Assembly: GCF_964355755.1 (NCBI RefSeq)
Contig: NC_092680.1
Location: 9,837,001-9,901,000 of the forward strand
DNA length: 64,000 nucleotides
Reading direction: 5' to 3'
DNA from: Antedon mediterranea
Taxonomy: Eukaryota > Echinodermata > Crinoidea > Comatulida > Antedonidae
Below are positions 6,028-64,000 of the stretch, piece by piece. Numbering within the stretch: the stretch's first letter is position 1; every line of letters begins with the position of its first letter. The position numbers and the translations under genes are program-made. The notes beneath the pieces were generated by a model that saw only the letters and a list, made by a program, of their open reading frames with translations, made no database searches and was not told the origin of the DNA.

Positions 6028-6669
6028 ATGGCTTTTCAGGTAAGCCCAATTGCCGGTTTTGATACGACGGACAGCCAAGCCCTCGGACAACGTTGGGAAA
6101 AATGGCGGAAATCTTTTGAGTTGTACATAGTTGCGAGCAACGTCAAAAACAACCAGCAAAAGAAGGCTATATTATTACATACAGCAGGGGAAGGAGTACA
6201 GGAGTTATTTGAAACGTTAACAAAGGAAGATGACACTTATGAAAAAGCAATCGAAGCGCTAAATGCTTATTTTTTGCCGAAGAAAAATGTTGCATTTGAA
6301 AGGCATGTTTATCGACAAGCTGTGCAGGAGAACGGGGAAACGATGGACAGTTTTGCTACACGCCTGAAGAAATTGATAAAAACATGTGAGTACGAAACTG
6401 AACTAGAAAAAGATATGATAAGAGATCAAATAATTGAAAAGTGTAGATCAAAGAAGTTGAGAATTAGATTGCTTAGAGAGGAAAAATTAACATTAGACAA
6501 AGCGTTAGAAATAGCACGGGCACATGAGCTAGCGGACACGCAGGCCCATCAAATGGAAGCTTCGAGATTACAGACCACGCAACAACAACAAGGTAGCGTC
6601 GAAGGCGCGTACGCGATGAGTCAAAACAACCGCCGCGAAGCAAGTCGCGATGGTAACCGAAAAAAGTAG
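6028..6669 (+). CDS. Gypsy Gag, N-terminal part
   Basis: 213 codons from ATG 6028 to TAG 6667-6669. The body is a retrotransposon Gag capsid-like domain: WEKWRKSFELYIVAS near the N-terminus, FERHVYRQAVQENGETMDSF in the middle and a basic Gln-rich end. Gag forms the particle that packages element RNA. The same frame stays open after the TAG and carries two CCHC knuckles, so the stop lies between capsid and nucleocapsid. It is either a nonsense mutation or a readthrough site. The CR1 start context was not used; this is the first ATG after the putative PBS. Confidence 0.85.
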   Translation: MAFQVSPIAGFDTTDSQALGQRWEKWRKSFELYIVASNVKNNQQKKAILLHTAGEGVQELFETLTKEDDTYEKAIEALNAYFLPKKNVAFERHVYRQAVQENGETMDSFATRLKKLIKTCEYETELEKDMIRDQIIEKCRSKKLRIRLLREEKLTLDKALEIARAHELADTQAHQMEASRLQTTQQQQGSVEGAYAMSQNNRREASRDGNRKK

Positions 6670-7578
6670 GCGGAGTCTAAGAAAAGTTACAGTAGTGCTT
6701 CGAGCTCGAGTGGAGGAGATAAGACGTGTTATCGTTGTGGCAAACCAGGTCACATAGCTAAAGCTTGTAGTGTTGTGAATAACAAGAAATGTCATAATTG
6801 CGGAAAATCTGGACATTTTGCGGTAGTGTGCCAGTCAAAAAAACCAAGTAATCACTCAAGAAAGTCTAAACCAAGAAAAGTGTATCAAACCACGACGAAC
6901 AGTAGTTCTGATAGTGATACTGATAACTCTGAGACTTTATTTGTTATAAAAACAAAAGATACTAAACCATTGTGTACTGTAAATGTTAACGGTAAAGATG
7001 TAAGGTGTTTGATTGATTCAGGAGCCAGTGTAAATATTATTAATTATGATATTGCTAGAGAATTAAACATAAAGATTAGGCCTAGCAAGATGAAAGTGTA
7101 TACTTATGGATCAAAAGAACCATTAAGAGTAAAAGGAGAGTTTGATGCCTATGTGCATTATGGAAAAAAAGGTATAAATACAACATTTGTGGTAATTGAT
7201 AATAAGGAATGTTGTACAATCCTTGGGTATAGAGGTGCAAGTGATCTTAACATATTAAAGATAGATATGTTGTGTAATGTCCAAGTCAATGACAAAAATG
7301 ATCAGTTGTTTAACGAATACAAGGATGTCTTTACCGGAGTTGGTAAATTAAAGAATTATGAATTAAAGATACATATTGATGATAAGGTACAGCCCATAGT
7401 TCAACCACAAAGAAGAATTCCTTTTAACTTAAGAAATGCAGTAGAAAGAAAGTTAAATGAGTTGTTAGATCATGACATAATAGAGCCGGTACAGGGTCCC
7501 ACATCGTGGATATCACTACCAGTTTTTGTACCTAAGAAAAATAGTGATGATTTGAGAATGTGTATAGATATGACATGA
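6670..7578 (+). pseudogene. Gypsy nucleocapsid, protease and start of RT
   Basis: In the same frame as Gag after the TAG. First come two CCHC zinc knuckles (CYRCGKPGHIAKAC at about 6730-6771 and CHNCGKSGHFAVVC at about 6790-6831). Then follow a Ser/Thr-rich linker, the aspartic protease with CLIDSGASVNII near 7006-7041, and the beginning of reverse transcriptase (SWISLPVFVPKKNSDDLRM, CID). The frame ends at TGA 7576-7578, where a deletion has removed the segment normally between CIDM and YDMNGATLFSKIDL. The product cleaves and initiates the Pol polyprotein in intact relatives. Confidence 0.8.
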
Positions 7579-8648
7579 ATGGAGCCACACTATTCTCGAA
7601 AATAGATCTTAAATGGGGGTTCCACCAAATTGAACTGGATGATAAGTCACGTGACATAACTACATTCATAACACATTGTGGGTTATTTAGGTTTAAACGT
7701 CTCATGTTCGGTATTACAAGTGCCCCTGAAATGTTCCAGCATATCATGGAACAAGTACTGGAAAAATGTAAAGGGGTAAAGGTAATTGCCGATGACATAG
7801 TGGTGTATGGTTGTAATCAGAAAGAGCATGACGTAAATCTAAAGAATGTATTAAATACATTAAGAGAAAGAGGGTTAACGGCAAACTTGGACAAATGCAA
7901 GTTTGGTCTAGATAAGTTAGATTATATGGGAAATGTATTGTCCAAAGATGGATTAGAGGTGTTTAAACAAAAAGTAGTTGCTGTGAAAGAAGCAAAGGTT
8001 CCGACAAATGTTGCGGAAGTTAGAAGTTTCTTAGGTTTGGTCGGGTATTGTGGAAGATATATAAATAATCTTTCAACAAGGGAAGAACCATTACGAAGAT
8101 TAACACGGGCAAAACAACCCTGGGTCTGGGGTAAAGAACAAAATGATTCTTTAAATGACCTGAAGAATGCACTTACAAGTGCAGAAGCAATGGCATATTA
8201 CAATAACAAGGCTAAAACACAAGTTATAACTGATGCTAGCCCAGTTGGGGTAGGGGCAATTCTAGTACAAAAACAGGATGATGGCATGTTTAAGCCTGTG
8301 TTGTATGCCAGTAGATCGCTAACTGATGTCGAACGGAGGTATTCCCAAACAGAAAAAGAAGCCCTGGGGATAGTTTGGGCATGTGAGAGGTTCCATTTGT
8401 ATCTGTACGGAATTAAGTTTGATTTAATTACAGATCATAAACCGTTAGAGGTTATTTACTCAGCACGATCGAAACCATCAGCGAGAATAGAACGCTGGGT
8501 TTTAAGATTACAACGGTATAGACCAGGAAGGTTAAATGCTGCTGATGCCCTCTCAAGATTGCCACTTGTAGTAGAGTCTAAGAGAAATGTAGCTGAAGAG
8601 TATATATTTTGTTGCAAAGAGTGCAACACCAATGGCCTTAACCACTAA
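7560..8648 (+). pseudogene. Gypsy reverse transcriptase and RNase H
   Basis: The frame begins after the deletion junction with YDMNGATLFSKIDLKWGFHQ. It continues through FGITSAPEMFQHIM and the catalytic motif KVIADDIVVYG, the thumb, and RNase H (TDASPVGVGAILVQ, YSQTEKEALGIVWACERFHL, TDHKPLE). Near 8515 the text jumps from LRLQRY to RPGRLNAADALSRL, missing a few residues usually found there. The RT core aspartates are present, but the fingers are damaged, so this copy is unlikely to encode active enzyme. A single-base frame change near 8625 separates it from the integrase. Confidence 0.85.
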
Positions 8649-9765
8649 AGAAATAGAACAAGTTTCAATGAAAGACGAAACAATGATATGCTTAAGGGAA
8701 GCAATCACTAATAATAATTGGTCAAATCCAAAAGTAGAAAGCTTCAAACATGTAAGAACGGAGCTAGCAGTAATAGGGAAGTTGATTTTAAGGCAACATA
8801 GAATTGTAGTGCCAGAAGAGTTAAGGAAACAAGTATTGAATTTGGCACATGAGGGACACCAAGGCATAGTAAAATGTAAATCTAGATTAAGGACAAAGGT
8901 TTGGTGGCCTGGAATCGATAGAGAAATTGAGAATTATGTAAAAGTGTGTCAGGCTTGTCAGGTAGTCGATAGACAAAGTAGACCTGAACCAATGAAACCA
9001 ACCGATCTGCCACAAAAGCCATGGCAGCATATTGGTATTGATTTGTGTGGTCCGTTTCCTGGAGGGGAAAGCTTATTAGTAGCAGTGGACTATTATTCTA
9101 GATGGTTTGAGGTAGGTGTACTACACTCAACCACAGCAGGGAAAGTGATCGAGACCTTAGATAATTGGTTCACAACTCACGGATTACCAGAGATGATCGT
9201 GAGCGATAATGGTCCTCAGTTTAGAGGTGATGAGTTTAAGAGGTTCGTAAATGAGAACGGAATTTCTCACAGAAAAACTACACCTTATTCTCCTCAAGCA
9301 AACGGAGAAGTTGAAAGGCAGAATAAAACACTCCTAAAAGCTATTAGAGCAATGTCTGCCGAAGGGAAAGTGTGGAAGAGAGAGATTAATAAGTTTCTGT
9401 TGGCGTACAGAACAACACCACACTGTGTTACTGGTGAAAGTCCAGCACAATTGATGTATGGTAGACAACTCAGGACCAAGTTGCCTGAGATGGGTAATGA
9501 AGGGAGAGACCCAAACGATGATGATATTAGAGTTAAGGATTATGAAAGTAAAGTAAAACAGAAGGAATATTGGGATAAAAGAAAGAAATCGAAAGAATCG
9601 GAAATTAAGAAAGGAGATAAAGTGTTTGTGAAACAGGATAAGAAAAATAAGTTGAGTACGACTTATGGAGAGATGCCATATAGTGTAATAGAAAAGAAGG
9701 GAAACAGTGTTCAGATCGAAAACGATGAAGGTGTACAGAAACGAAGAAATGTAAAAGACCTTTAA
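8632..9765 (+). CDS. Gypsy integrase
   Basis: 377 codons. An HHCC zinc-binding domain is visible (HEGHQGIVKCKSRLRTKVWW followed by CQACQ), then the DDE catalytic core: first Asp in IGIDLCGPF (about 9035), second in IVSDNGPQF (about 9197), Glu in YSPQANGEVERQNK (about 9282-9324). A basic C-terminal tail ends RRNVKDL at 9765. Integrase inserts the cDNA copy and makes the 5-bp duplication seen here. In relatives it is part of one Pol polyprotein; the ATG at 8632 is only where this frame opens after a frame change. Confidence 0.88.
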   Translation: MALTTKEIEQVSMKDETMICLREAITNNNWSNPKVESFKHVRTELAVIGKLILRQHRIVVPEELRKQVLNLAHEGHQGIVKCKSRLRTKVWWPGIDREIENYVKVCQACQVVDRQSRPEPMKPTDLPQKPWQHIGIDLCGPFPGGESLLVAVDYYSRWFEVGVLHSTTAGKVIETLDNWFTTHGLPEMIVSDNGPQFRGDEFKRFVNENGISHRKTTPYSPQANGEVERQNKTLLKAIRAMSAEGKVWKREINKFLLAYRTTPHCVTGESPAQLMYGRQLRTKLPEMGNEGRDPNDDDIRVKDYESKVKQKEYWDKRKKSKESEIKKGDKVFVKQDKKNKLSTTYGEMPYSVIEKKGNSVQIENDEGVQKRRNVKDL

Positions 9766-26183: not shown

Positions 26184-29153
26184 CTACATGAAATTAGCAG
26201 TTAACAGTTTCTTAAAAAGAGAGACAGAGTTCACATTTTTAATATCTTCATGTAGCTCATTCCAAACCTTGGCACCTCTATATGATAAGCTACGTTTTTT
26301 GTAGTTTGTGTTTGGTTTTGGTACAATTAAATTTGGCTTAGTTCTAATATCATAGTAATTGTTTTTGATATTGAACTTATTTAATAAATATGGAGGTGCA
26401 AGGTTATTCATAATCTTAAACATAACAATAGCTTCATTTATATATAATCTTTCATCTAAGTTCATCCAATTTAGACTTTGTAGAGCTTGAGTACTAGAGT
26501 CGGTTTGAGATTTGTTTGTAATAACTTTTGCTGCGCGATTTTGAAGAACTTGTAGTGTTTTACTTTGAGTTATATTTGAACGTCCCCAAACAACATGGCA
26601 ATACTCAAGATGAGGAGCCATAAGTGATTTGTATAGTTTGCATTGAATTTCTTTTGGAAATATATTATTAGTCTTTTTTAAGTAGTACAAGCTCTGCAAA
26701 ACCTTAGATTTAACATTATCGATTTGTGAGCACCAAGAAAGATTATTATCTAATATCACACCAAGGTGTTTACATTTATTTACACGAGAGATTGGTTCTC
26801 CATCTATGTTAATGTTGACTTGTAAGTCAGATAGTTTACTTAACCTCTGACTCGTTCCAATTAACATAAATTCAGTTTTTTTAACATTTAGGCTAAGTTT
26901 GTTGCATATGAGCCATCTTTTAAGACACAATAAGTCAGAATTTATTGTTTCAGTAAGGTTATTAATATTATTGGAAGTGTAGTATATGGCAGTGTCATCA
27001 GCATACATAGAAACAGAGCATTTATTTACAGCATTAGGCAAGTCATTAACATAAAGGAGAAACATTAATGGTCCAAGGATGGACCCCTGAGGAATTCCAC
27101 ATATACTGTGACTTTCATCAGAAGAATCACCATTTACATTGGTTATATGTACACGATTTTGCAGGTAGTTTTCAAACCACTGAATAACATTTGAATGAAA
27201 ATTGAAAGATCTTAGTTTATTGATAAGAATACTGTGATTTACTGTATCAAAAGCCTTTTTCAAGTCTATCATTACTAACCCAATATAATTTCCTTTGTCA
27301 ATGGCTTCTAGCCAGGTCTCTGTGATATTAAGCAATGCAGTCGTAGTTGAGTAGCCTGGTCTAAACCCAGACTGATTATCATATAGCATTTTGTTTAGAT
27401 TTAAGAAATCATAAACTTGTTCAAATACAACTTTTTCAAGAACTTTAGATAATATTGGGAGAATTGAAATTGGCCTATAATTATTACATTCATTTTTATT
27501 TCCACCTTTATGAAGAGGGCAGATCTTGGCCCTTTTCCATTGTTTTGGAAAAGTTAAATTTTTTAAAGATAAATTAATTATATATGTTATTGGGTAAACA
27601 ATTTCATCAATAGCGATTTTTAGAAGATTAGCTGGTATTTCATCAGTTCCAGTTGCTTTTTTTGATGAAAGTGAGTTAAGAATTTTATGTATGTCTTGTT
27701 TATTAACATATTTAAAAGTTAATTTGTCGTTAGTATTATTTAAATCATTAGTAAAGTTAGAAAGTTGATTAGTAGATTGAATACTTTGAGCTAATGTTGG
27801 ACCCACATTGGCAAAATATTTATTTAATACATTTGCAATATCTTTAGAATTAGTTACTTCATCATTTTCTTCATCATTTGTGGTTTTAATACTTGTTATA
27901 TTCATGCTTTTAGTTTTGCCAGGAATAATTAATTTAATATTTTCCCATATCTTTTTCTGATCTTTAGTATTGAGTTGTTCAGAAAAATAGTTCTTCTTAC
28001 TTTTTCGAAGTTCATAATTTACTTGATTTCTTAATTTTCTATATTCAGGCCAAAGCTGAAGCCTATTTTTCTTATTTATTCGTCTTTTTAATGCATCTCT
28101 TTTTCTGATGAGAAGTATTACATTTTTAGTTAGCCATGGACTGTTTTTTTGGCGAACTCTTTTACGTTTAATGGGTGCATTTTTATTTGCAATATTAAGA
28201 AAGGTTTTTTGAAAGAAATCAACAGCATCATCAACATCAGTATAATTCTTAATTTCAGCCCAATTTGTATTAAGTAAGTCAGTTTTAAATTTATTTTCAT
28301 CAAAATGTTTATAGTTCCTATTTGTTTTAAATCTATGGTTACTTTTCTCTTTGTATGCTTTTCCAAATTTGATGTAGATAGCGGAGTGGTCACTAAGACC
28401 AGTATGAAGTACACCACTGTTAGTTATTTTTTCTGGCGATGAAACATAAATATGATCAATTAAAGTACTAGAGTGATCTGTAATTCGCGTAGCTTCAGAA
28501 ATTAATTGTGTTAAGTGATAGTTATTTGTTAATTCTTTTAATTTTAAAGTATAGTAAGATGGAGTTGATGATAGAAGGTCACAGTTTATGTCCCCAATTA
28601 AAATAATTTCATTATCAGTATTATCTCTTTCAATTTGTTTAAGAATTTTTTCAAATTCATCAAATGTATCAGTACATGAATTAGGTGGGCGATACCATGC
28701 AATAATTAAAATAGGTTTTCTCTTCGGTTTAGTTAATTTGATAACAATTGCTTCAAGATTAGGACTCATTAAATTTTCTAAAATTTCATAATTAAAAGAA
28801 CAGTTTTGACTTATATATACTGCTACACCCCCTCCTTCTCGGTTTCTATCCTTTCTAACAACATTAAAACCATTAATCTCAATTTCATTGTCGCTTATAG
28901 TATTATCAAGACGTGTTTCATTTAAAGCTACAATGTCAACATTGTTATTTTCCATTAAGTATTTGATTTCATCAAATTTTCCAGGGAGGGTAACGATGTT
29001 TAAACCTAAAATATTAAGCCCTTTTCCATTAAATACATTACCAATATCTGTAGGCAAATTATCCTTAACAGAGTCAATTTCATTTTCTGAGTTGATTGTA
29101 GAAGAGTTCGTATCGTTTGTATTATCTGTGGCATTCTCTTCATCGCCTACTTT
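26184..29153 (-). CDS. LINE ORF2: endonuclease and reverse transcriptase
   Basis: A single open frame runs from the codon after the ORF1 stop (29153) to the stop at 26184. AP-endonuclease motifs: LNETRLD, WYRPP, IGDINCDLL, SDHSAIY. RT motifs: NYRPISILPILSKVLEKVVF, SGFRPGYSTTTALLNI, MIDLKKAFDTVNHSIL, GIPQGSILGPLMFLLYVNDL and the catalytic MYADDTAIYY. The C-terminus has LQNRAAKVI and KVWNELHEDIK. All catalytic motifs look intact. The frame has no ATG before the endonuclease begins; the first is at LMENN, inside the domain. Expression probably depends on ORF1, which is in the same frame. Confidence 0.9.
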   Translation of the reverse strand, partial: KVGDEENATDNTNDTNSSTINSENEIDSVKDNLPTDIGNVFNGKGLNILGLNIVTLPGKFDEIKYLMENNNVDIVALNETRLDNTISDNEIEINGFNVVRKDRNREGGGVAVYISQNCSFNYEILENLMSPNLEAIVIKLTKPKRKPILIIAWYRPPNSCTDTFDEFEKILKQIERDNTDNEIILIGDINCDLLSSTPSYYTLKLKELTNNYHLTQLISEATRITDHSSTLIDHIYVSSPEKITNSGVLHTGLSDHSAIYIKFGKAYKEKSNHRFKTNRNYKHFDENKFKTDLLNTNWAEIKNYTDVDDAVDFFQKTFLNIANKNAPIKRKRVRQKNSPWLTKNVILLIRKRDALKRRINKKNRLQLWPEYRKLRNQVNYELRKSKKNYFSEQLNTKDQKKIWENIKLIIPGKTKSMNITSIKTTNDEENDEVTNSKDIANVLNKYFANVGPTLAQSIQSTNQLSNFTNDLNNTNDKLTFKYVNKQDIHKILNSLSSKKATGTDEIPANLLKIAIDEIVYPITYIINLSLKNLTFPKQWKRAKICPLHKGGNKNECNNYRPISILPILSKVLEKVVFEQVYDFLNLNKMLYDNQSGFRPGYSTTTALLNITETWLEAIDKGNYIGLVMIDLKKAFDTVNHSILINKLRSFNFHSNVIQWFENYLQNRVHITNVNGDSSDESHSICGIPQGSILGPLMFLLYVNDLPNAVNKCSVSMYADDTAIYYTSNNINNLTETINSDLLCLKRWLICNKLSLNVKKTEFMLIGTSQRLSKLSDLQVNINIDGEPISRVNKCKHLGVILDNNLSWCSQIDNVKSKVLQSLYYLKKTNNIFPKEIQCKLYKSLMAPHLEYCHVVWGRSNITQSKTLQVLQNRAAKVITNKSQTDSSTQALQSLNWMNLDERLYINEAIVMFKIMNNLAPPYLLNKFNIKNNYYDIRTKPNLIVPKPNTNYKKRSLSYRGAKVWNELHEDIKNVNSVSLFKKLLTANFM

Positions 29154-29852
29154 TCAGTTTCTGTTGAATTTCATATCACAGTATTTTGATTTGTGTCCTG
29201 GTGTGTTACAGTCCCAGCAGACAATAGAATGGCCATGTCGACAAACTCTTCCATTGTGTCCAGTTTCCCCACAGAAGTGGCATCGTCGGGATTTTGCTCC
29301 TTGATGAACATAAGAACTATCAGTGACTCTACGTGTTGGCAGTATTTCAATTTGCTTGTTGATGCTTTTTAGAAGAGCAGCAGTGCCTAGTTGGTTTAGA
29401 TGGAGACCGTGTTGTGTAAATTTTCTTGTGTCATACTTACTTCCCATGATAAAAGCATTTGAGTTGTCAATATATTTTCCTTCAAACGTTGATTTCAGAA
29501 CTTTGTTTACCTCATAGACTCTGTTGTCAAAGATATATCTATCGAAACGAGGACAGATACCTGAAATGAACACTTGACCACAGATTTTTGGTTCTAGATA
29601 TTTGATAATGTCATTCATATCAGAGATTACTTTTCGAAGAGAGTAGTTATTGGACGCACAATCATTGGTTCCGGCATGTATAATAACGTTGTTGATATTT
29701 GTTAGATCAGTACCTTTAACCCGTTGTTCTACGTCTTTGATGGTAGCGCCTCTTAGTGTGCACACTGTGGTATTTTTTAAGCCTCTAACTTTGATATGCT
29801 TTAGCATAGAATCGCCAATAAGTAAGTTCTTGATTGAGCTTTCGGTTCTCAT
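29154..29852 (-). CDS. LINE ORF1: SGNH esterase with two zinc knuckles
   Basis: 232 residues from ATG 29852 to TGA 29156-29154. SGNH/GDSL hydrolase blocks are visible: LLIGDSMLKHI with the nucleophile Ser at about residue 14, IIHAGTNDCAS near residue 60, and HGLHLNQLGTAAL near residue 152 for the catalytic His. Two CCHC knuckles follow, CHFCGETGHNGRVC and CWDCNTPGHKSKYC. Such proteins bind element RNA, and the esterase is thought to act on lipids or membranes during replication. The stop is the only barrier to a fused ORF1-ORF2 protein. Confidence 0.88.
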   Translation of the reverse strand: MRTESSIKNLLIGDSMLKHIKVRGLKNTTVCTLRGATIKDVEQRVKGTDLTNINNVIIHAGTNDCASNNYSLRKVISDMNDIIKYLEPKICGQVFISGICPRFDRYIFDNRVYEVNKVLKSTFEGKYIDNSNAFIMGSKYDTRKFTQHGLHLNQLGTAALLKSINKQIEILPTRRVTDSSYVHQGAKSRRCHFCGETGHNGRVCRHGHSIVCWDCNTPGHKSKYCDMKFNRN

Positions 29853-35800: not shown

Positions 35801-36631
35801 GTAGGTATATAATCAAACCTCCTTTTGGGCTACAAGATTTACCCTGTGAAATACACACATAATTATCAAGTTCAATTTGTGAAGTATCGGCACAGTCACT
35901 CGACCATGTATTTGTATACAAATAGCAGAAAAATAAAATTGTTTAGTTGCTAAATCATTTTAAAATACAACTAATTCATTGAATTTAGCATGTATTGATT
36001 GGATATTCGTACTAAGTATACAGAAATTGTTTTTTCTTAACTCAAGAAAATTCAACATAGAATCACAATCATAATATGGAGAGTGTTTAAGTAACTGAAC
36101 TGGATTATCACTAAAATCATTTTCATCAAGACATAGAATGTTTTGTAGAGAGTTACCGTCTACACCACCATAGTTTTGCAATATTGAGTTATCAAGTGTA
36201 GTCACCATTAAAATGTATAATACTTAAATATATTGCCGTTATACCAAAATACATAACTATGCTTGGGCCTAAATAATCAAGTAGTACATTTCTGAAAGGC
36301 ATAACAAAAAAAAGGTGAAACATAAGAAAAGACTTGTAAAAACAAAATAAATTTGCCAACTTGTATCGCCTTATTTAAAGGTCAACCAGCTCATACTGTT
36401 AGTTATATAATGTCATTGTTATTAATTTATAGTTCAAGCTTTTAAATCGTTTAGGTTCCGAGATAGATCTAGTTGATTACTGATGGTAAGTTTTTTCAAG
36501 CCGTTGGTAAGAATAAAGATCTTGCCGTTCAAGTGTCCATGTAGATTTAATGAACTTCGCATATTTGGTTTTTATGACTCGTAATAGCTCCGAGCGTTTC
36601 AGGGTCAGATTCTCATGTATGTAGTACAGTA
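32868..36631 (-). mobile_element. CR1-like LINE inserted in tRNA-Glu
   Basis: A 3.8-kb minus-strand LINE. Its 3' tail is a tandem AGTCACA repeat (32868-32890) and its 5' end lies at 36631. It separates the two halves of one tRNA-Glu gene cleanly, with at most a TTA overlap. The body holds endonuclease and RT coding sequence with stops and frameshifts, and about 420 bp of possible 5' UTR. Confidence 0.8.
33080..36208 (-). pseudogene. LINE endonuclease-RT, broken
   Basis: Reading minus-ward from 36208: an N-terminal frame (36208-35960) with CILSTNIQSIHAKFNEL, a second (35921-35685) with GLIIYLHKDFNY, and a third (35695-34472) with ITGDTNINLL, GTLIDNFF, SDHQPYF, then RT fingers LKSKSSCGWDGLSTKLIKS. 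From 34470 to 33400 the RT palm is spread over several frames. The last frame (33379-33080) is the C-terminal tail with ALHSYNTR. The order fits a single-ORF CR1-clade protein. Multiple frameshifts make it dead. Confidence 0.8.
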
Positions 36632-36685
36632 TTAGGATTCGGCGCTCTCACCGCCGCGGCCCGGGTTCGATTCCCGGTGTGGGAA
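36632..36685 (+). pseudogene. tRNA-Glu(CTC) gene, 3' part, split by LINE
   Basis: It resumes with TTAGGATTCGGCGCTCTCAC and ends GGTTCGATTCCCGGTGTGGG plus AA. It contains the anticodon loop CTCTCAC (anticodon CTC, Glu), T-arm and 3' acceptor strand. It complements 32847-32867 across the LINE. Confidence 0.85.
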
Positions 36686-36801
36686 ATTATTTTGTTCCTT
36701 GTCTATTAGATTTTGTTTGAAATAAACAAGAATGAATACGTTATACTAAGACTGTAAAATTCATTATCAATTGAAAACAACGGAAAATGGAAATAAAATG
36801 T

Positions 36802-36888
36802 TCCCTCCAGCCGGATTTGAACCAGCGACCTAAGGATACCAATAATTAGCTCTACAGTCCTCCGCTCTACCAACTGAGCTATCGAGGG
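36802..36888 (-). tRNA. tRNA-Tyr(GTA) with 14-nt intron
   Basis: 87 nt on the minus strand. A-box TAGCTCAGTTGGTAGAG, anticodon arm GGACTGTAG, then the 14-nt intron AGCTAATTATTGGT after position 37, then ATCCTTAGG and T-arm GCTGGTTCAAATCCGGC. The acceptor stem has one G-G mismatch (CCCTCGA against TGGAGGG), unlike the copy at 44392, so it may be less functional. Confidence 0.85.
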
Positions 36889-36892
36889 TACA

Positions 36893-37110
36893 CATTGGTA
36901 AACATGTTGAATACCTAAGCAAATTATTGGTAAACATGTTGAATACCTAAGCACCTATTGGTAAACATGTTGAATACCTAAGCACATTATTGGTAAACAT
37001 GTTGAAAACCTATAAAGCACATTATTGGTAAACATGTTGAATACCTAAGCACATATTGGTAAACATGTTTAATACCTAAACACATTATTGGTAAACATGT
37101 TGAATACCTA
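36893..37110. repeat. Minisatellite, about 29-32-bp unit, array unit 1
   Basis: About seven copies of a unit beginning TTGGTAAACATGTTGAATAC and ending CTAAGCACATTA, with small variants. The same minisatellite is at 44483-44735 between the same two tRNA genes. Confidence 0.85.
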
Positions 37111-37163
37111 ATTTTAAAGATATATGAGTTTTTCAATCAAAGGTAAACAATTAAACAAAAACC

Positions 37164-37236
37164 AGGTTCCGCCCGGGCTCGAACCAAGGACCTTCTGCGT
37201 GTAAAGCAGACGTGATAACCACTACACCACGAAACC
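37164..37236 (-). tRNA. tRNA-Val(TAC)
   Basis: 73 nt on the minus strand. The acceptor stem GGTTTCG pairs with CGGAACC, the D-arm has GTGTAGTGGTTATCAC, the anticodon loop is TTTACAC (anticodon TAC, Val), and the T-arm is TTGGTTCGAGCCCGG. It folds as a full cloverleaf by eye. Confidence 0.88.
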
Positions 37237-37415
37237 ATTTACAAGAACAGTGTTGGTTACACAAAGTTTTTCAATCCATTTAAATGACAAATAAACATGT
37301 GTAAAAGTGATAATCACCGATTCTACAAAATAAGTAGGCCTATTAAAAAAAATAAGATATACTGTATAATCATATTGCATATATAGTACTTTTCACGGTA
37401 AAGTTTAAAAAAAAT

Positions 37416-37477
37416 AGGTTTCGCCCGGGCTCCTTCTGCGTGTTAAGCAGACGTGATAACCACTACACTACGAAGCC
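37416..37477 (-). pseudogene. tRNA-Val(AAC) pseudogene, T-arm deletion
   Basis: Minus strand GGCTTCGTAGTGTAGTGG ... CTGCTTAACACGCAGAAGG then GAGCCCGGGCGAAACC. The anticodon arm is intact (AAC), but about 11 nt of the T-arm are missing. Confidence 0.7.
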
Positions 37478-43973: not shown

Positions 43974-44061
43974 TCCCTCTAGCCGGATTGGAACCAGCGA
44001 CCTAAGGATATCAATTAATTAAGTCTACAGTCCTCCGCTGTACCAACTGAGCTATTGAGGG
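43974..44061 (-). pseudogene. tRNA-Tyr pseudogene
   Basis: 88 nt on the minus strand, with the GTA anticodon arm and a 15-nt intron. The B-box is mutated (GGTTCCAATCC instead of GGTTCAAATCC) and GGTACAGCG replaces GGTAGAGCG in the D-arm. It corresponds to the half gene at 32743. Confidence 0.7.
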
Positions 44062-44191
44062 TGGTGTGTCTCTCTCGTTGTAGCCTATTATGGAGTGTTT
44101 GTTTCAATAAAATGTACTAATAATGAACCGTGTTCCATTGTTAAACACGAATACCAATATGAGTGCTTAAATTTAAGGCTTTCTCAAGTTT

Positions 44192-44263
44192 TCCCATATG
44201 GTCTAGTGGTTAGGATTTGGCGTTTTCACCGCCACGGCCCAGGTTCGATTCCCGGTGTGGGAA
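44192..44263 (+). tRNA. tRNA-Glu(TTC)
   Basis: 72 nt. The acceptor TCCCATA pairs with TGTGGGA, the A-box region is TGGTCTAGTGGTTAGG, the anticodon arm is TGGCG-TTTTCAC-CGCCA (anticodon TTC), and the B-box is GGTTCGATTCC. It is the intact counterpart of the split tRNA-Glu in unit 1. Confidence 0.88.
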
Positions 44264-44391
44264 ATTATTTTATTCCATGGTCTATTAGACTTTGTTTGAA
44301 ATAAACAAGAATGGATACGTTATACTAAGACTGTAAAATCTTTTTAAAATTCATTGTCAATTGAAAACAACGGAAAATGGAAATAAAATGT

Positions 44392-44478
44392 TCCCTCGAG
44401 CCGGATTTGAACCAGCGACCTAAGGATACCAATAATTAGCTCTACAGTCCTCCGCTCTACCAACTGAGCTATCGAGGG
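44392..44478 (-). tRNA. tRNA-Tyr(GTA) with 14-nt intron
   Basis: Same sequence as 36802-36888, but the acceptor stem CCCTCGA pairs perfectly with TCGAGGG, so this is the best candidate for a functional Tyr gene. The intron is AGCTAATTATTGGT. Confidence 0.9.
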
Positions 44479-44482
44479 TACA

Positions 44483-44735
44483 CATTGGTAAATATGTTGC
44501 ATACCTAAGCAAATTATTGGTAAACATGTTGAATACCTAAGCACATATTGGTAAACATGTTGAATACCTAAGCACATTATTGGTAAACATGTTGAAAACC
44601 TAAGTACATTATTGGTAAACATGTTGAATACCTAAGCACATTATTGGTAAACCTGTTGAATACCTAAGCACATATTGGTAAACATGTTTAATACCTAAAC
44701 ACATTATTGGTAAACATGTTGAATACTTAATTTTA
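44483..44735. repeat. Minisatellite, array unit 2
   Basis: About eight copies of the same unit as 36893-37110 (TTGGTAAACATGTTGAATAC ...), between the Tyr and Val genes. Confidence 0.85.
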
Positions 44736-44782
44736 AAGATATATGAGTTTTTCAATCAAAAATAAACAATTACACAGAAACT

Positions 44783-44855
44783 AGGTTCCGCCCGGGCTCG
44801 AACCGAGGACCTTCTGCGTGTAAAGCAGACGTGATAACCACTACACCACGAAACC
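44783..44855 (-). tRNA. tRNA-Val(TAC)
   Basis: 73 nt on the minus strand; acceptor GGTTTCG with CGGAACC, anticodon TAC, T-arm CTCGG-TTCGAGC-CCGGG, better paired than the unit 1 copy. Confidence 0.9.
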
Positions 44856-52534: not shown

Positions 52535-52968
52535 TAGACCGGCAGCCCAGAGACATTTGGTTAGATGAGCTAGGTACCAACATCTGACTATTTGAGTGTG
52601 TTGGGGGTCACTTGAAGTGAATGAAAATGGGAGTCTGCCGGGTACCCCCTGCTGCGTCTAGACCGGGGGGACCCCGAAACGTGCTAAAAAATCGGCACAG
52701 GTTAGATGAGAGAGATACCACCTAATTTTACCACCATGGGATGCCCATTGGCATCCTTATAACAGTATCACAAACGACAGACTTTTTCTCTGCTGCAAAA
52801 GGCCCGCCAGACCCCCCGAGGGAGGGCCTAAAATGGGGTTAGCATAGATGAGTGAGGTACCACTCAAAATCAATTCCAAACGAACAAGTTGTGTTAATAC
52901 AATACAAAATGGATAACAACAGACTAATTGTCTGCTGCACCGCCAGTGCTAGACACCCTAAAGTTAGA

Positions 52969-53500
52969 CTAGAGGCCCCCCTTCCCCCAACTAACCCAGC
53001 TTAGATATTGTAGATACCACCAGCAACCAATGTTATATGATTTAGCACATTGTAAGCAATACCAAATGACCTATTACAGACTATCTGAACACTGCCCTGG
53101 CCCTGGCAGACCCCTCTAAAGTTAGACTAGAGACCCCTATTTCCCCAACTAGCCCAGCTTAGATATTGTAGATACCACCAACAACCAATGTTATATGATT
53201 TAGCACATTGTAAGCAATCACCAAATGACCTATTACAAACTATCTGTACACTGCCTTGGCCCTGGCAGACCCCTCTAAAGTTCGACTAGAGACTCCATTC
53301 CCCCAACTGGCCTAGCTTAGATATTGTAGATACCACCAGCAACCAATGTTATAATTATGATTTAGCACATTTGTAAGCAATACCAAATGACCTATAACAG
53401 ACTATCTGTACACTGCCTTGGCACTGGCAGACCCCTCTAAAGTTCCCCCATTTACCCCAAGTATATAGCCTACCTTAGATATTGTAGATACCACCAGCAG
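52969..53500. repeat. Tandem repeats of about 160 bp in left arm
   Basis: Units start CTAAAGTTAGACTAGAG and include CTTAGATATTGTAGATACCA, CCAATGTTATA, GATTTAGCACATTGTAAGCA, CAAATGACCTATTACA and CTGGCAGACCCCT. Three full copies and a partial one. They are mirrored at about 56950-57490. Confidence 0.85.
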
Positions 53501-54249: not shown

Positions 54250-56035
54250 ATCCAAATTGACAATTGCCGCAAAATCCTCACTGAGTTTGACGTTGAAATT
54301 CACTCTAGAACTAAGAAGTTGAAAAGAGAACTTCCTGCATCATAGTTTCAAAACAAACTCAGGATTATCGCCAATGACTGCCGTAAACAATCAACGGTAA
54401 TGGCCCGAAGGGAACATCACAAATTTGGTCTACCTGCAGACTTGGTCATTTCAACACAAATGACTCTACCTTCGGATGACTTCAGGGCTTTTAGGAAACC
54501 CTGCAGAAGGTTCGTTGGGACATATAACAAGAATCAGAGCAACACCTCTGATTCAGTTGTTGAAATTAATTGTCGACTTTCCGAAGGAGAGAAAAAACTT
54601 CTTTCCCGAGGACTTAAATTCTGCCCAAAACCAAGGCAGGTCGGCGCACAACAACTATCTTTGGATATAGAGTCTTTTTCTAGAAGATTACGATTACATG
54701 AATATTTTGCTGATTCAGACAGCAGCACCACGCAAAACGAAGGCAACGTTAACAAATTTAAACCAAAAAGTTCCTAGAATCCACCTAAAATTCGTTGTCC
54801 AGCTTTAGAAACATTTATCCAGGCTATTGAGGAGGATGTACAAAACTACGTCCCGAGTCCAGATAAACGTGACAATCTCAAAACAAGAGAGGCAGGCCAT
54901 TGCCAAATTGCGTCAGAGTAATGATATCACCATTAAACCCGCTGATAAAGGTTCTGCCACTGTTGCTATGGACATCAAATTTTATTAAGAGGAATCCTTA
55001 AGACAGCTTCATTATATATCGTAAACTCACAACGGAACCCACCCCGGAAATTGCGGATAAGGTGGCAAAATCTGTTTCTGTGATGGTAAAAAAAAAACAC
55101 TCCATCGATCCTAAGATTTACAGTTACCAAATCCACTAGTAACGTTGATTTTGTGGACACTATAGTGACCATAGAAAATGGTACTCTCAAAAACTGACCT
55201 ATTCCGTAAACCCACTGATAAAAATATGTACCTGCTCCTTAGCAGTTGTCATCCCCAACACTGTACTAAAAACATACCGAACAGTAAAGCATTACCTATC
55301 AGACGTATCTGTTCTTCAGATTTAGATTTTCAGAATCGTACCGAAGAACTAACCGGACATCTCCGGAATAGAAATTACAAACCTATCACCCTAGGTTGCC
55401 TCCATTACGGGGCTATTAATTTATTGAGAAACATATGCCCATTCTACAGTCCACAGAACGTCTCAGGACTGTTTTTCCGGAACCACCCATTATTGCATTT
55501 CGTAGACCTCCCAACCTTCGTGATATATTAGTCAGATCCAAATGTAAGAGTGAAATTAACTCTCATGACAGTCAAAATTTGGGCAGTCACCTTTGCGGCA
55601 AATCTTGCAAAACTTGTTCATTGGTTGATTTTACTGAAAAATTTAAGAGTAACTAAACTGGCCGCATTTTTCGGATAAGACAATCAATTAATTGTCTAAC
55701 CAAAAACGTCATTTATCTCATATACTGTAATATTTGTGGCAAACAGTACGTCGGAGAAACAAAAAACACTCTCCGTATGAGAATGACACAATACAGATCA
55801 GCTATCAACACATTAAAGCTTGTTCAACCTGTAGCCGAACATTTTAATTCAGCTGGTCACTCGGTAACAAATTTCAGAGTTATTGCAATATTCCATGTGT
55901 CAAATGGAGCGACAAAACTCGCAAAGACAAGGAAAAACACTGGGAATTACAACTTAAAACCACAAAACCTTTTGTACTTAACATTAGAAACATACTCCCA
56001 GGTTGGTAAAATTATTCCATTGTCTACCAAAATTT
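54250..56035 (+). pseudogene. Penelope-like RT / GIY-YIG gene, RT core deleted
   Basis: The N-terminal part (54268-54777) carries RREHHKFGL and LSRGLKFCPKPRQ, DIESFSRRLRLHEYF. The strand then continues through KPADKGSATVAMDI-like text near 54940. The catalytic RT palm is missing: near 55130 the reading jumps to VDFVDTIVTIENGTL and DLFRKPTDKNMYLLLSSCHP, then FPEPPIIAFRRPPNLRDILV (55470-55530). The end encodes a GIY-YIG endonuclease (VIYLIYCNICGKQYVGET, about 55711-55764, then AEHFNSAGHSVTNF). At least three frameshifts occur. This order is typical of endonuclease-bearing Penelope-like elements. The copy cannot encode a working RT. Confidence 0.78.
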
Positions 56036-56484
56036 AAGTTTCAATATTAACCACCATTTAAGCTGTTTTTAGTTTTATTCTAAAGCTTTATCTATGTTAA
56101 GTACGTCCTTAAAACAGCTTCCACTTAGATAGTTATTTTTAGTACCTATCCTTTCCTGGCGCGACTCTATAGTTCACTATGTCGGTCGGTCTGTCGGTCG
56201 GTCCGGTATCTCTATGTGTTTTAGCACGCGACTTATGGCTGTTGGCCTTGTTTAGTTTCATTCCAAAATTGTTTATACTGTATCTCTACCAAGCTACCTT
56301 CTTTGTTTTCTACTCTTTTTCAGACTCCGTCTGTTGTATTTCTTTTATTCCTGTCCACCCAGGCAGCACTTGCCAGCTCTTATCCTTCACTTGCAATGAT
56401 GAAGGGCTAGTGTTGCCCGAAAGCTCTGCTAACGTTTCTGGCTGTTTTACTTTATCCTTTTGATTTAGCTTTTCACTTTTTTTT

Positions 56485-57905
56485 TTGTATCTCCATTGTG
56501 ATTCAGCCAGATACCCACAGCATTGTCATTTTTTCAGTTATTTGCCTTTGGATTTATATATATAAATATATATAGAGGATTAAGATTATAATATACAGCA
56601 TTTAAAATTACCAACTATTAATTAATCAAATCACTTTGGATTAAGTTACTACAATCCTGAATTTGATTAAGGTGATTACTAAGCTTTCTCTTAAAATAGG
56701 TTGCAAGAGTTACAGACGAATGTATCTTTGACATTCAAAGGCAAGGAATTTCAGATCCTCACAATTCTAGCAGGAATGCTAAATTTACTCGAATCTGTAC
56801 TTGTTTATATTTGGCTTATATAAGTTTGAAGTGAAACTCTTAAACTATTTTTCCCTTTAAAATGGTAATGGTCATTTTATCGTCATTGATGTGATATATT
56901 TTCAATTGTTTTGTGTTAGTTCGATTAAAGTTAAAATTTATTGGTATCTACAATATCTAAGGTACATGTAGGCTATATACTTGGGGTAAATGGGGGAACT
57001 TTAGAGGGGTCTGCCAGTGCCAAGGCAGTGTACAGATAGTCTGTTATAGGTCATTTGGTATTGCTTACAATGTGCTAAATCATAATTAAAACATTGGTTG
57101 CTGGTGGTATCTACAATGTCTAAGCTAGGCCAGTTGGGGGAATGGAGTCTCTAGTCGAACTTTAGAGGGGTCTGCCAGGGCCAAGGCAGTGTACAGATAG
57201 TTTGTAATAGGTCATTTGGTGATTGCTTACAATGTGCTAAATCATATAACATTGGTTGCTGGTGGTATCTACAATATCTAAGCTGGGCTAGTTGGGGAAA
57301 GAGGGGTCTCTAGTCTAACTTTAGAGAGGTCTGCCAGGGCCAGGGCAGTGTTCAGATAGTCTGTAATAGGTCATTTGGTATTGCTTACAATGTGCTAAAT
57401 CATATAACATTGGTTGCTGGTGGTATCTACAATATCTAAGCTGGGTTAGTTGGGGGAAGGGGGGCCTCTAGTCTAACTTCAGGGTGTCTGGCACTTGCGG
57501 TGCAGCAGACAATTAGTCTGTTGTTATCCATTTAGTATTGTATGAACACAACTTGATCGTTTGGAATTGATTTTGAGTGGTACCTCACTCATCTATGCTA
57601 ACCCCATTTTAGGCCCTCCCTCGGGGGGTCTGGCGGGCCTTTTGCAGCAGAGAAAAAGTCTGTCGTTTGTGATACTGTTATAAGGATGCCAATGGGCATC
57701 CCATGGTGGTAAAATTAGGTGGTATCTCTCTCATCTAACCTGTGCCGATTTTTTAGCACGTTTCGGGGTCCCCCCGGTCTAGACGCAGCAGGGGGTACCC
57801 GGCAGACTCCCATTTTCATTCACTTCAAGTGACCCCCAACACACTCAAATAGTCAGATATTGGTACCTAGCTCATCTAACCAAATGTCTCTGGGCTGCCG
57901 GTCTA
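56485..57905. repeat. Right inverted arm
   Basis: Reverse-complement counterpart of 52535-54014, without the Tx1-type tail. The small ORF at 57860-58150 runs out of the arm and is not a gene. Confidence 0.85.
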
Positions 57906-61271: not shown

Positions 61272-61553
61272 GTAATTTTAAAAATATCAGTCATCATTCA
61301 ATTTATATTTGGTTTACGAACTGTTTATATAGACCATGACCATGTCCGTTGCAAGATTGATTTTGAGTGCACAATTTACAACAACAGAGATTGTACCACG
61401 GCGTGCATAGAGGACAAACTTTTTGTGTTTGCCTTTTATACATATAGATTTAGGTTCTATTCTTTATGGACCTTGTACTTAAGCGTGATGAACCACGCTC
61501 GTTAAAGATGTTAACTTATTTTAACTTTTGTATTTTACTTTTAATGATTACAG
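61272..61553 (+). other. Candidate 5' intron of the Arg-rich gene
   Basis: GTAATT at 61272 after ATCTCAG and AATGATTACAG ending at 61553 would remove a 282-nt intron and place a non-coding exon upstream of the ATG. The acceptor polypyrimidine tract is weak. A frame at 61236-61505 crosses it and is probably not coding. Confidence 0.35.
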
Positions 61554-61557
61554 AACC

Positions 61558-64000
61558 ATGTGGTGTATTCGAGTTGCTCTACTTTCTATTTTGTTCCTGG
61601 TAGCTGTGAAAGGAGATTCAAGAACTATAAAAAACGACGAAAATACAATCAAGGCAGTTTCAAGGCCTGATGTAAACTTGGATGTGAAAGCAGACCTATC
61701 GAGTGTTAGCCCTCTAAGTGCTATCACATCAGATGAGACAGACAGAGTAAAATTACGTTGTCGTAGACGGAGGAGAGTACGTCGATGTCGTAGGCGACAC
61801 CGTCGTTGTGTAAGACGACGTTGTCGCCATTGCAAAAGACGACATAGACGTTGTCGGCGCTCTATAAGACGACGTTACCGTTGCAGAAGACGGCGTTGTA
61901 GGCGATACCGTCGACAATATCGTCGCTCGATTTGCCGACGACGACGCCGTTGCAGAAGACGATATAGACGCGTTCGTCGATGTATAAGACGGCGTAATCG
62001 TTCCAGAAGACGTCGCTGTAGGCGATACCATCGACGTTATCGTCGCTGTGTTAGGCAACGACGACGACGTCAACGCAGAATACAATATAGGCGTGTTCGT
62101 CGATGTATAAGACGGCGTTACCGACATCGTTGTAGGCGATACCATCGACGATATAGAGTTTATTGGCGTCACAATCGTTGCTATATGTTAGTCCACCGAG
62201 GCAGTTGCGTTCGTCGATACCGCATTAAATACAGGTACTATCGACATAAGTTATACATCTATTACAGGCGAAGATGGCGCTGTGTTCGACGATTTAAACG
62301 TAATGGAAGATGGTATACGTACTACAGAGGTCGTTACGTTATAAGACGTCGTTTTAGGAGATGCTACCGTAGAATTTATTGGTATAGAAACCGTTGTTAC
62401 CTGTTGATCCGATGTGGTCGTCACATTCGACGATATCGTCTTAGATACAGATACCGTCGCCACATATTGTATGTTTATTACAGAAGACGATGGCGCATTG
62501 TTCGACGTTATAGACGTCATGGGAAATGGTATACGTACTACAGAGGTCGATACGTTACCAGACGTCGTTTTAGGCGATGTTACCGTAGAATATATTGGCG
62601 CAAAAACCGTTGTTACCTGTTGATCCGATGTGGTCGTCACGTTCGACGATATCGTCTTAGATACAGATACCGTCGTCACATATTGTATGTTTATTACAGA
62701 AGACGATGGCGCATTGTTCGACGTTATAGACGTCATGGGAAATGGTATACGTACTACAGAGGTCGATACGTTACAAGACGTCGTTTTAGGCGATGTTACC
62801 GTAGAATATATTGGCGCGGAAACCGTTGTTACCTGTTGATCCGATGTGGTCGTCACGTTCGACGATATCGTCTTAGATACAGATACCGTCGCCACATATT
62901 GTATGTTTATTACAGAAGACGATGGCGCATTGTTCGACGTTATAGACGTCATGGGAAATGGTATACGTACTACAGAGGTCGATACGTTACAAGACGTCGT
63001 TTTAGGCGATGTTACCGTAGAATATATTGGCGCAAAAACCGTTGTTACCTGTTGATCCGATGTGGTCGTCACGTTCGAAGATATCGTCTTAGATACAGAT
63101 ACCGTCGCCACATATTGTATGTTTATTACAGAAGACGATGGCGCATTGTTCGACGTTATAGACGTCATGGGAAATGGTATACGTACTACAGAGGTCGATA
63201 CGTTACAAGACGTCGTTTTAAGAGATGTTACCGAAGAATATATTGGTACAGAAACCGTTGTTACCTGTTGATCCGATGTGGTCGTCACGTTCGACGATAT
63301 CGTCTTAGATACAGATACCGTCGCCACTTATTGTATGTTTATTACAGAAGACGATGGCGCATTGTTCGACGTTATAGACGTCATGGGAAATGGTATACGT
63401 ACTACAGAGGTCGATACGTTACAAGACGTCGTTTTAAGAGATGTTACCGAAGAATATATTGGTACAGAAACCGTTGTTACCTGTTGATCCGATATGGTCG
63501 TCACGTTCGACGATATCGTCTTAGATACAGATACCGTCGCCACTTATTGTATGTTTATTACAAAAGACGATGGCGCATTGTTCGACGTTACAGACGCAAT
63601 CGAATATTGTATATCCTATATCGAGGTCGATATGTTATTAAGCGATCTATACCGTCCCGTTCAATCAAAGTAGTACGGAAACACACTTACTATATGTGGA
63701 AACGAAACGTATTGTACCGTTGTACTAGACTTGGTCGCGTTTACCGTAGATACCGGGTCCGTTATCGATGGCGTAGTGGGCGACTGTTTGCATACATTCG
63801 ACGCAGATGGTGCATGGTTCGTAAATTTAATCAACATGGTGCACGCTATGCTTTCCGTGGAAGGCGATATGTAGTGAGTGGACACTGGCATCCAGGTTTT
63901 TATTTCTACTTCACACAGAATAAATTGTACATGCGTGTTCGCTGTGGCAGACTTCGCAATAAGTACCGCGTAAGATATAGATGGCGAGGTCAATCCTTAT
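61558..64000 (+). CDS. Secreted Arg/Tyr-rich repetitive protein, partial (no stop in window)
   Basis: 814 uninterrupted codons from ATG 61558 (context ACCATGT) to the window end. Residues 1-19 form a signal peptide (MWCIRVALLSILFLVAVKG). Residues 20-62 hold all nine acidic residues. Residues 63-210 are an Arg/Cys block (RCRRRRRVRRCRRRHRRC style). From residue 210 follow 72-residue repeats with YRLRYRYRR, YYRRRWRIVRRY, GKWYTYYRGRYV, RRRFRRCYRRIYW and NRCYLLIRCGRH. One unit (62617-62832) has 28 Arg, 14 Tyr, 3 Cys, 3 Trp and no Asp, Glu or Pro. The last two repeats diverge but keep GRYV, RCGR and YRVRYRWR. I recognise no family. Possible roles are adhesive, matrix or polyanion binding, or antimicrobial; all are inference. 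Confidence 0.85.
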   Translation, partial: MWCIRVALLSILFLVAVKGDSRTIKNDENTIKAVSRPDVNLDVKADLSSVSPLSAITSDETDRVKLRCRRRRRVRRCRRRHRRCVRRRCRHCKRRHRRCRRSIRRRYRCRRRRCRRYRRQYRRSICRRRRRCRRRYRRVRRCIRRRNRSRRRRCRRYHRRYRRCVRQRRRRQRRIQYRRVRRCIRRRYRHRCRRYHRRYRVYWRHNRCYMLVHRGSCVRRYRIKYRYYRHKLYIYYRRRWRCVRRFKRNGRWYTYYRGRYVIRRRFRRCYRRIYWYRNRCYLLIRCGRHIRRYRLRYRYRRHILYVYYRRRWRIVRRYRRHGKWYTYYRGRYVTRRRFRRCYRRIYWRKNRCYLLIRCGRHVRRYRLRYRYRRHILYVYYRRRWRIVRRYRRHGKWYTYYRGRYVTRRRFRRCYRRIYWRGNRCYLLIRCGRHVRRYRLRYRYRRHILYVYYRRRWRIVRRYRRHGKWYTYYRGRYVTRRRFRRCYRRIYWRKNRCYLLIRCGRHVRRYRLRYRYRRHILYVYYRRRWRIVRRYRRHGKWYTYYRGRYVTRRRFKRCYRRIYWYRNRCYLLIRCGRHVRRYRLRYRYRRHLLYVYYRRRWRIVRRYRRHGKWYTYYRGRYVTRRRFKRCYRRIYWYRNRCYLLIRYGRHVRRYRLRYRYRRHLLYVYYKRRWRIVRRYRRNRILYILYRGRYVIKRSIPSRSIKVVRKHTYYMWKRNVLYRCTRLGRVYRRYRVRYRWRSGRLFAYIRRRWCMVRKFNQHGARYAFRGRRYVVSGHWHPGFYFYFTQNKLYMRVRCGRLRNKYRVRYRWRGQSL
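62185..64000 (+). repeat. 216-bp tandem coding repeats
   Basis: A diverged first copy (62185-62400), five close copies starting 62401, 62617, 62833, 63049 and 63265, a copy from 63481 that diverges after about 63588, and degenerate copies to the end. The period of 216 is exactly 72 codons, so the frame never shifts. Copy differences are mostly synonymous or Arg/Lys in the plus frame (for example AGGCGA to AAGAGA, CGA to AGA). Confidence 0.92.

Follow-up and report, generated by a model that had tools for sequence, protein, structure and literature searches.

A genomic family of extremely basic repeat proteins with an acidic paralog in the crinoid Antedon mediterranea: candidate components of a condensing secretion

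In a 64,000-nucleotide stretch of Antedon mediterranea DNA (hereafter the window; C11:9837001-9901000 of a 354-Mb assembly in 18 contigs), we identified a gene for a very long arginine- and tyrosine-rich repeat protein. The gene belongs to a family that also includes histidine-rich polycations and a purely acidic protein. On balance we give about equal weight to the reading that the family forms a secreted kit of polycations with a polyanion, condensing to yield a glue, cement or matrix, and to all other readings together. The ORFs, the family, its composition, its sequence constraint and the oppositely charged paralogs in one array are firm; from these we infer expression, secretion, processing, condensation and adhesion.

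Results

Architecture of the window gene

The frame opens at an ATG at position 61558 of the plus strand, downstream of an in-frame stop at 61522, and the ORF listing confirmed that it runs 814 codons to the window edge with no stop, as the first-pass annotation had claimed. The gene does run off the window, again as claimed: the assembly sequence adds 572 bases up to a normal stop, giving 1,004 residues in total and a gene end at C11:9901572 (window position 64572), with an AATAAA downstream of the stop. The following parts were distinguished within the window.

61538..61557, plus strand: presumed 3′ splice acceptor (...attacag/aacc), recognised by its sequence; its AG ends at 61553, 4 bases before the ATG
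61558..61614, plus strand: predicted signal peptide, residues 1-19, with its end judged by eye; a hydrophobic leader, near-identical in C11 paralogs and related in C4 paralogs
61615..61743, plus strand: acidic pro-region, residues 20-62, net charge -4, defined by composition; paralogs carry related pro-regions; presumably removed
61744..62172, plus strand: Arg/Cys block, residues 63-205, Arg 60.1%, Cys 10.5%, net charge +88, defined by composition and a corresponding block in paralogs
62173..63705, plus strand: seven Arg/Tyr units, residues 206-716 (six of 72 residues; the seventh 79 residues to the next unit), from tandem-repeat and unit analysis
63706..64000, plus strand: diverged units from residue 717, the gene continuing to 64572, from unit comparison and the sequence beyond the window

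The presumed acceptor, of the form AG/AAYY-ATG, may belong either to an intron in the 5′ UTR or to a trans-splice site. The signal peptide that had been proposed remains a prediction, supported by the hydrophobic leader and by similar leaders in the paralogs. The Arg/Cys block contains a 120-bp tandem repeat, and a 216-bp tandem array (6.2 copies, 96% matches) occupies 62260-63596. Counted from residue 206 there are seven units, the first six spaced 72 residues apart, in agreement with the 72-residue tandem repeat noted earlier; the tail from residue 717 consists of additional, more diverged copies. Arg and Tyr account for 36.9% and 19.6% of residues 206-709, close to an earlier hand count of 39 and 19 percent, and for 39.8% and 16.5% of residues 63-814. 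Within the window, Asp and Glu are confined to residues 20, 27, 28, 38, 42, 46, 59, 60 and 62. The earlier statement that none occurs after residue 62 thus holds for the window, but the full protein from residue 63 to its end (942 residues, net charge +356) has two acidic residues, both Asp and both beyond the window, so the statement needs a small correction for the complete protein.

An alignment of 14 family units showed invariant columns of Gly and Trp and nearly invariant columns of Tyr, Arg, Leu and Gly, with a consensus of roughly WR-N-LYL-IR-GR----RVRYR-RGGRLYYYYGGRW--V-RY-RNG. An AlphaFold model of two units, built from an input of 8 near-identical rows, was all-beta (pLDDT 78.9, pTM 0.48), and the diverged tail reached a pLDDT of only 45.6. 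Beta alternation in the Arg units was not above that of shuffles. Choline/glucan-binding type beta-hairpin repeats were considered as a candidate fold, and fold searches returned no significant match.

Coding status of the window frame

The window frame is very probably coding and constrained, since most of the differences between the oldest repeat copy and the adjacent ones are silent. Between unit 1 and units 2-6, 54-57% of silent sites and 13-15% of replacement sites differed (pN/pS 0.23-0.27). When unit 1 was compared with units 2 and 4, the other five frames gave ratios of 0.48-1.56 and the plus frame alone was stop-free. Of 20,000 simulations matched for the number and type of changes, 0.005% equalled the identity between units 1 and 2 (52/72 residues) and 5% were stop-free; the absence of Asp and Glu, taken alone, was not significant (P 0.15). 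The length of the open frame is not a product of chance, the probability of so long a frame being about 1.6e-25 under the background stop frequency and that of 752 open codons about 6e-10 under the region's own all-frame stop frequency. Ratios elsewhere in the gene were 0.30-0.76 among the near-identical units (from a handful of changes), 0.42-0.75 for the seventh unit against the others, and 0.48 for the tail unit against unit 3, where the other frames gave 0.84-1.28 and one antisense frame was stop-free too. Over the last 26 codons the ratio was 0.59 in frame against 0.50-1.18, and the frames were not separated.

These data bear on the possibility that the region is a satellite-like tandem repeat, open by accident and containing no protein gene. 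The near-identity of the tandem copies, an antisense frame of 358 codons, and visible breakage in one C4 copy together with two fragments would all fit such a repeat. It would not explain the excess of silent-site changes, the paralogs with a common leader and acceptor, or ten undamaged-looking ORFs, the longest of 1,850 codons, and we consider it extremely unlikely.

A paralogous family in the same genome

The first-pass annotation had described one gene; the gene is upheld but is in fact a member of a family. We searched the window's own assembly and then read about 173 kb around the matches plus 8.6 kb on C2. On C11 and C4 there are at least 11 family ORFs, 10 of them without visible damage, plus 2 fragments; the family counts are lower bounds because both assembly searches report best candidates only.

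C11:9898558, plus strand: window gene, 1,004 aa
C11:9919099, plus strand: family fragment
C11:9927573, plus strand: family ORF, 342 aa
C11:9936308, plus strand: family ORF, 700 aa
C11:4837318, minus strand: family ORF, 314 aa, 5 Mb from the other C11 members
C4:25052022, plus strand: family ORF, 1,850 aa
C4:25061500, plus strand: family ORF, 490 aa
C4:25064885, plus strand: family ORF, 305 aa and then broken
C4:25070051, plus strand: family fragment
C4:25084639, plus strand: His-rich ORF, 1,028 aa
C4:25099245, plus strand: His-rich ORF, 1,259 aa
C4:25108150, plus strand: acidic ORF, 543 aa
C4:25132200, plus strand: family ORF, 1,257 aa

The plus-strand members on C11 span less than 40 kb, and the C4 array (25052022-25135973), entirely on the plus strand, less than 84 kb. 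All 11 ORFs start with a hydrophobic leader and have cag/aaYY directly before the ATG. A related pro-region is present in ten of them, and the eleventh consists of that pro-region's acidic repeats; leader and pro-region together have a net charge of -2 to -7 in the eight ORFs with a computed value. The Arg members carry an Arg/Cys block plus units of 65-72 residues. In the 1,850-aa paralog, 21 units follow each other at a spacing of 65 residues, and its last 1,777 residues have a net charge of +575 and no Asp or Glu; the 1,257-aa paralog has one acidic residue among its last 1,184. Net charge ranges from +354 to +570 in three Arg members. Several family members have tails rich in Ser, Gly and Thr.

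The two long His-rich members (1,028 and 1,259 aa; His 30.1% and 31.5%, respectively) repeat a module consisting of an acidic spacer, DKV(L/S)ACC, a His/Tyr-rich block and an Arg run, with 9 and 11 interspersed acidic spacers, 9 and 11 DKV(L/S)ACC sites and 6 and 9 RRRR-S(T/Y) sites. Upstream of both genes, 2.6 kb of DNA is common at 96% identity, and the pair is therefore a recent duplication. The 543-aa member corresponds to the spacer of the His genes alone, with 20 listed repeats, 17 of 24 residues and 3 of 25 (Glu 18.8%, Ser 17.1%, net charge -93). Its frame stops at a TAA (C4:25109781), after which about 1.5 more repeats can be read, so this member may be truncated.

A second assembly search, with the 700-aa paralog as the query, listed 40 matches, including the following frames on C2, which are larger and more distantly related, and others on C3, C5 and C9 (E 0.003-0.3).

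C2:39609151: family match, E 9e-7, frame of 2,176 codons
C2:9679435: weak family match, E 0.04, frame of 2,889 codons
C2:39621355: weak family match, E 0.18, frame of 2,200 codons

The protein at C2:39609151 was read almost to its full length (2,158 residues from the ATG). It opens with a leader of its own and an acidic pro-region whose last residues are KR; Arg blocks and related units are also present, its long centre is rich in His and repeats every 36 residues, and further units lie at its end. One acidic residue and 576 His occur from residue 73 onward, where the net charge is +423. At C2:9679435, the 1.5 kb that was read likewise encodes a signal-like start, together with units of the family's kind.

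Selection among paralogs

Between the window gene and C11:9936308, pN/pS was 0.33 for the C-terminal units (p 0.015) and 0.39 for the Arg/Cys blocks (p 2.5e-12), the latter an approximate value from a repetitive alignment. Between C4:25052022 and C4:25132200 it was 0.30 for the Arg/Cys block (p 0.11), 0.50 for the first unit (p 0.03) and 0.55 for the last unit (p 0.05), and units inside C4:25052022 gave 0.34. Pro-regions were weakly constrained (0.51-1.29 over nine pairs), with the highest ratio, above 1 but not significant, in the closest pair. The His-rich pair gave 0.78 and 0.91 from few changes, with no clear constraint; the acidic repeats of the 543-aa member gave 0.56 and the spacers of the larger His member 0.50.

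That ratio above 1 (not significant) in the closest pro-region pair, along with the protamine-like Arg/Cys block, would suit a gamete protein, namely an acrosomal, egg-coat or sperm-packaging polycation. The leader speaks against a nuclear protamine, however, and the mature parts are conserved rather than fast-evolving, which makes a role in gametes very unlikely. Protamines share the Arg/Cys-rich composition of residues 63-205, but they are small nuclear proteins without a signal peptide, whereas the window protein has a leader, 1,004 residues and aromatic beta units.

Searches for known relatives

Within their limits, searches of Pfam, NCBIfam, PDB, folds and protein databases found no credible relative of the family, in line with the earlier description of a protamine-like protein of no recognised family. 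The best Pfam E values were 9.2 for the window protein and 0.67 for its pieces. A Pfam search with five full-length members gave a single match above its cut-off: the 1,850-aa paralog matched SAF at E 8.8e-8, with 33 bits where 21 are required; none of its stretches passes singly, and we dismissed it because we take it to be the sum of a weak match across 21 repeats. Two single-unit Pfam matches were likewise rejected, DUF2145 (E 0.0009, below its cut-off) and TgpA_N (E 0.0018), each in one of 14 units. NCBIfam gave no match, PDB sequences gave best E values of 0.38 and 0.15, and PDB profile searches gave none. Three pattern matches in viral contigs were not confirmed, and phage records yielded no match. 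The window protein matched 0 of 7,988 candidates scored in the protein database, and 0 of 79 with E values of up to 10. As a control for the scoring, which does not extend to the preceding word filter, artificial full-length copies still scored with 60% of residues replaced from the protein's own composition or 70% from background composition; copies with 70% replaced from their own composition did not. In the literature covered, from which subscription journals are mostly absent and in which papers were available in part, we recognised no paper describing this Arg-rich repeat family.

Other elements in the window

The motif TAGGCCTA was seen 12 times in the window against 0.5 expected from dinucleotides, and once more shortly past the stop of the window gene. 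Enrichment of this motif is familiar from echinoderm genomes. The retroelements and composition of the window point to animal DNA, and the assembly gave no match to COX1. Gypsy-like retroelement frames occupy 6028-9765, including a gag-like frame with a PNMA match just under Pfam's cut-off. A LINE-like element at 26184-29852 has an open 957-aa reverse-transcriptase frame with 171 database relatives (best 55% identity), among which the one animal-named row is Mactra antiquata at 35%; the first frame of the element is GDSL-like, below Pfam's cut-off. Two similar tRNA clusters at 36613-37477 and 43974-44855 comprise 7 Rfam tRNA hits, with Glu and Val named by ARAGORN, and each is accompanied by an array of one and the same 32-bp minisatellite. 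At 52951-53444 and 56997-57490, 158-bp tandem arrays whose consensus units are apparently mutual reverse complements lie on either side of frames that include a GIY-YIG-like stretch (55657-56037); this may be a Penelope-like element.

Discussion

Among the functions first suggested for the window protein, that of an adhesive, matrix or structural protein fits best, because His-rich and acid-only members lie in one array and the units are predicted to be all-beta; a membrane-active defence function stands as a rival. We propose that each gene encodes a pre-pro-protein whose leader would direct the chain into the secretory pathway. The acidic pro-region would mask the polycation and then be removed or, in the His members, be retained as an internal polyanion. 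What remains would be a very long polycation, in which the Arg/Cys block supplies charge and disulfides and is followed by a series of predicted beta units with a high content of Arg, Tyr and Trp. Paralogs would contribute His/Tyr-rich polycations, possibly acting as a pH switch and in metal binding, and one paralog a polyanion of Glu/Ser repeats. The set may be packed into secretory granules and condense upon release, both by complex coacervation between members of opposite charge and by condensation of Arg guanidinium with sulfate, which is abundant in seawater, or with sulfated glycans. Beta contacts, disulfides and Tyr/His chemistry would then set the condensate into a glue, cement or tough matrix.

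Known systems offer precedents for single parts of this scheme. The Arg-rich protamine salmine reportedly phase-separates with sulfate (PMC6523547), and sandcastle-worm cement is reported to be a coacervate of secreted polybasic (Pc1, Pc2, Pc4, Pc5) and polyacidic or polyampholyte (Pc3) proteins (PMC11277488). The crinoid family likewise combines basic and acidic members, with secretion predicted, and we put it at an even balance that the kit would work as that cement does, relatedness aside. The likeness drawn here lies in the description of the proteins; unlike the worm proteins, the family uses Arg and beta units, and its basic and acidic members share one leader type and one array. DOPA and phosphoserine are further features of the Pc proteins. 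The flatworm glue protein Mlig-ap1 of Macrostomum is also large and secreted, with long Lys/Arg-rich repeats, of unexplained function, making up two-thirds of it (PMC8621496); its core, however, consists of known protein- and carbohydrate-binding domains, whereas the family has no credible Pfam match. Sea-cucumber COOLPs (Cuvierian organ outer-layer proteins), as they are described, resemble the family in having long tandem repeats, a predicted nearly all-beta structure and no known domain (PMC12472103).

The same genes could instead be host-defence precursors. The acidic pro-region would then hold in check a polycation that acts on membranes or binds DNA or LPS, and in the His members convertases would cleave at the Arg runs, setting free His-rich peptides that bear a CC motif. 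A leader, an acidic pro-region and a cationic Cys-containing part, as in the family, are also found in cationic antimicrobial pre-pro-peptides (styelin, arminin and strongylocin, for example). The Arg-run sites recur regularly in the two long His members, which also hold the DKV(L/S)ACC sites, and would suit peptide precursors; the pro-regions are more variable than the mature parts. Against this, the Arg members are 300 to 1,850 aa long with no regular cut signal apparent between units, and there is a member that is wholly acidic; to our knowledge, antimicrobial pre-pro-peptides do not typically have beta units or tails of Ser, Gly and Thr. The family thus differs from these peptides in length, beta repeats and the acid-only paralog, and we judge host defence unlikely. 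We favour the condensing secretion because one paralog is acid-only, because the Arg members are so long and because of the tails of Ser, Gly and Thr.

The proteins might also build a structural material that is hard or cross-linked, for instance in a tube, cuticle, jaw, skeleton or periostracum matrix; this reading overlaps with our preferred one, minus the glue function. His/Tyr blocks would bind metal ions, and Arg units would template mineral or bind sulfated polysaccharide. Such a material would agree with the His/Tyr-rich blocks, with the many Cys, Tyr and Trp residues, with the repeats and with the acidic Ser-rich paralog, but no enzyme or mineral-matrix domain was seen in the ORFs scanned, and we hold it, too, to be rather improbable. 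Several observations also weigh against a condensing kit. A single acidic member, possibly truncated, faces many basic ones; constraint is weak in the pro-regions and not clear in the His pair; the beta model, with its pTM of 0.48, comes from 8 near-identical rows; and the pre-pro layout also suits antimicrobial precursors.

A more specific scenario, which we advance tentatively and as somewhat less probable than the condensing secretion itself, is that tandem amplification split an ancestral pre-pro-gene. Its pro-region would have given rise to the polyanion gene and its cationic part to the Arg and His polycation genes, whose frames reach about 2,900 codons. The result would be a genetically linked set for a coacervate that serves as an underwater glue or matrix and whose beta unit has no known relative. 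Repeat genes like these form a class that domain databases do not recognise, and a stretch of 1,777 residues with zero acidic residues and a net charge of +575 lies far beyond what is expected of secreted proteins. Should the basic and acidic genes work jointly, one array would show a condensing secretion evolving by separate amplification of the halves of a precursor. If this is true, the family would provide a wet-adhesion set that can be tested recombinantly, with condensation of Arg with sulfate in seawater as its direct prediction.
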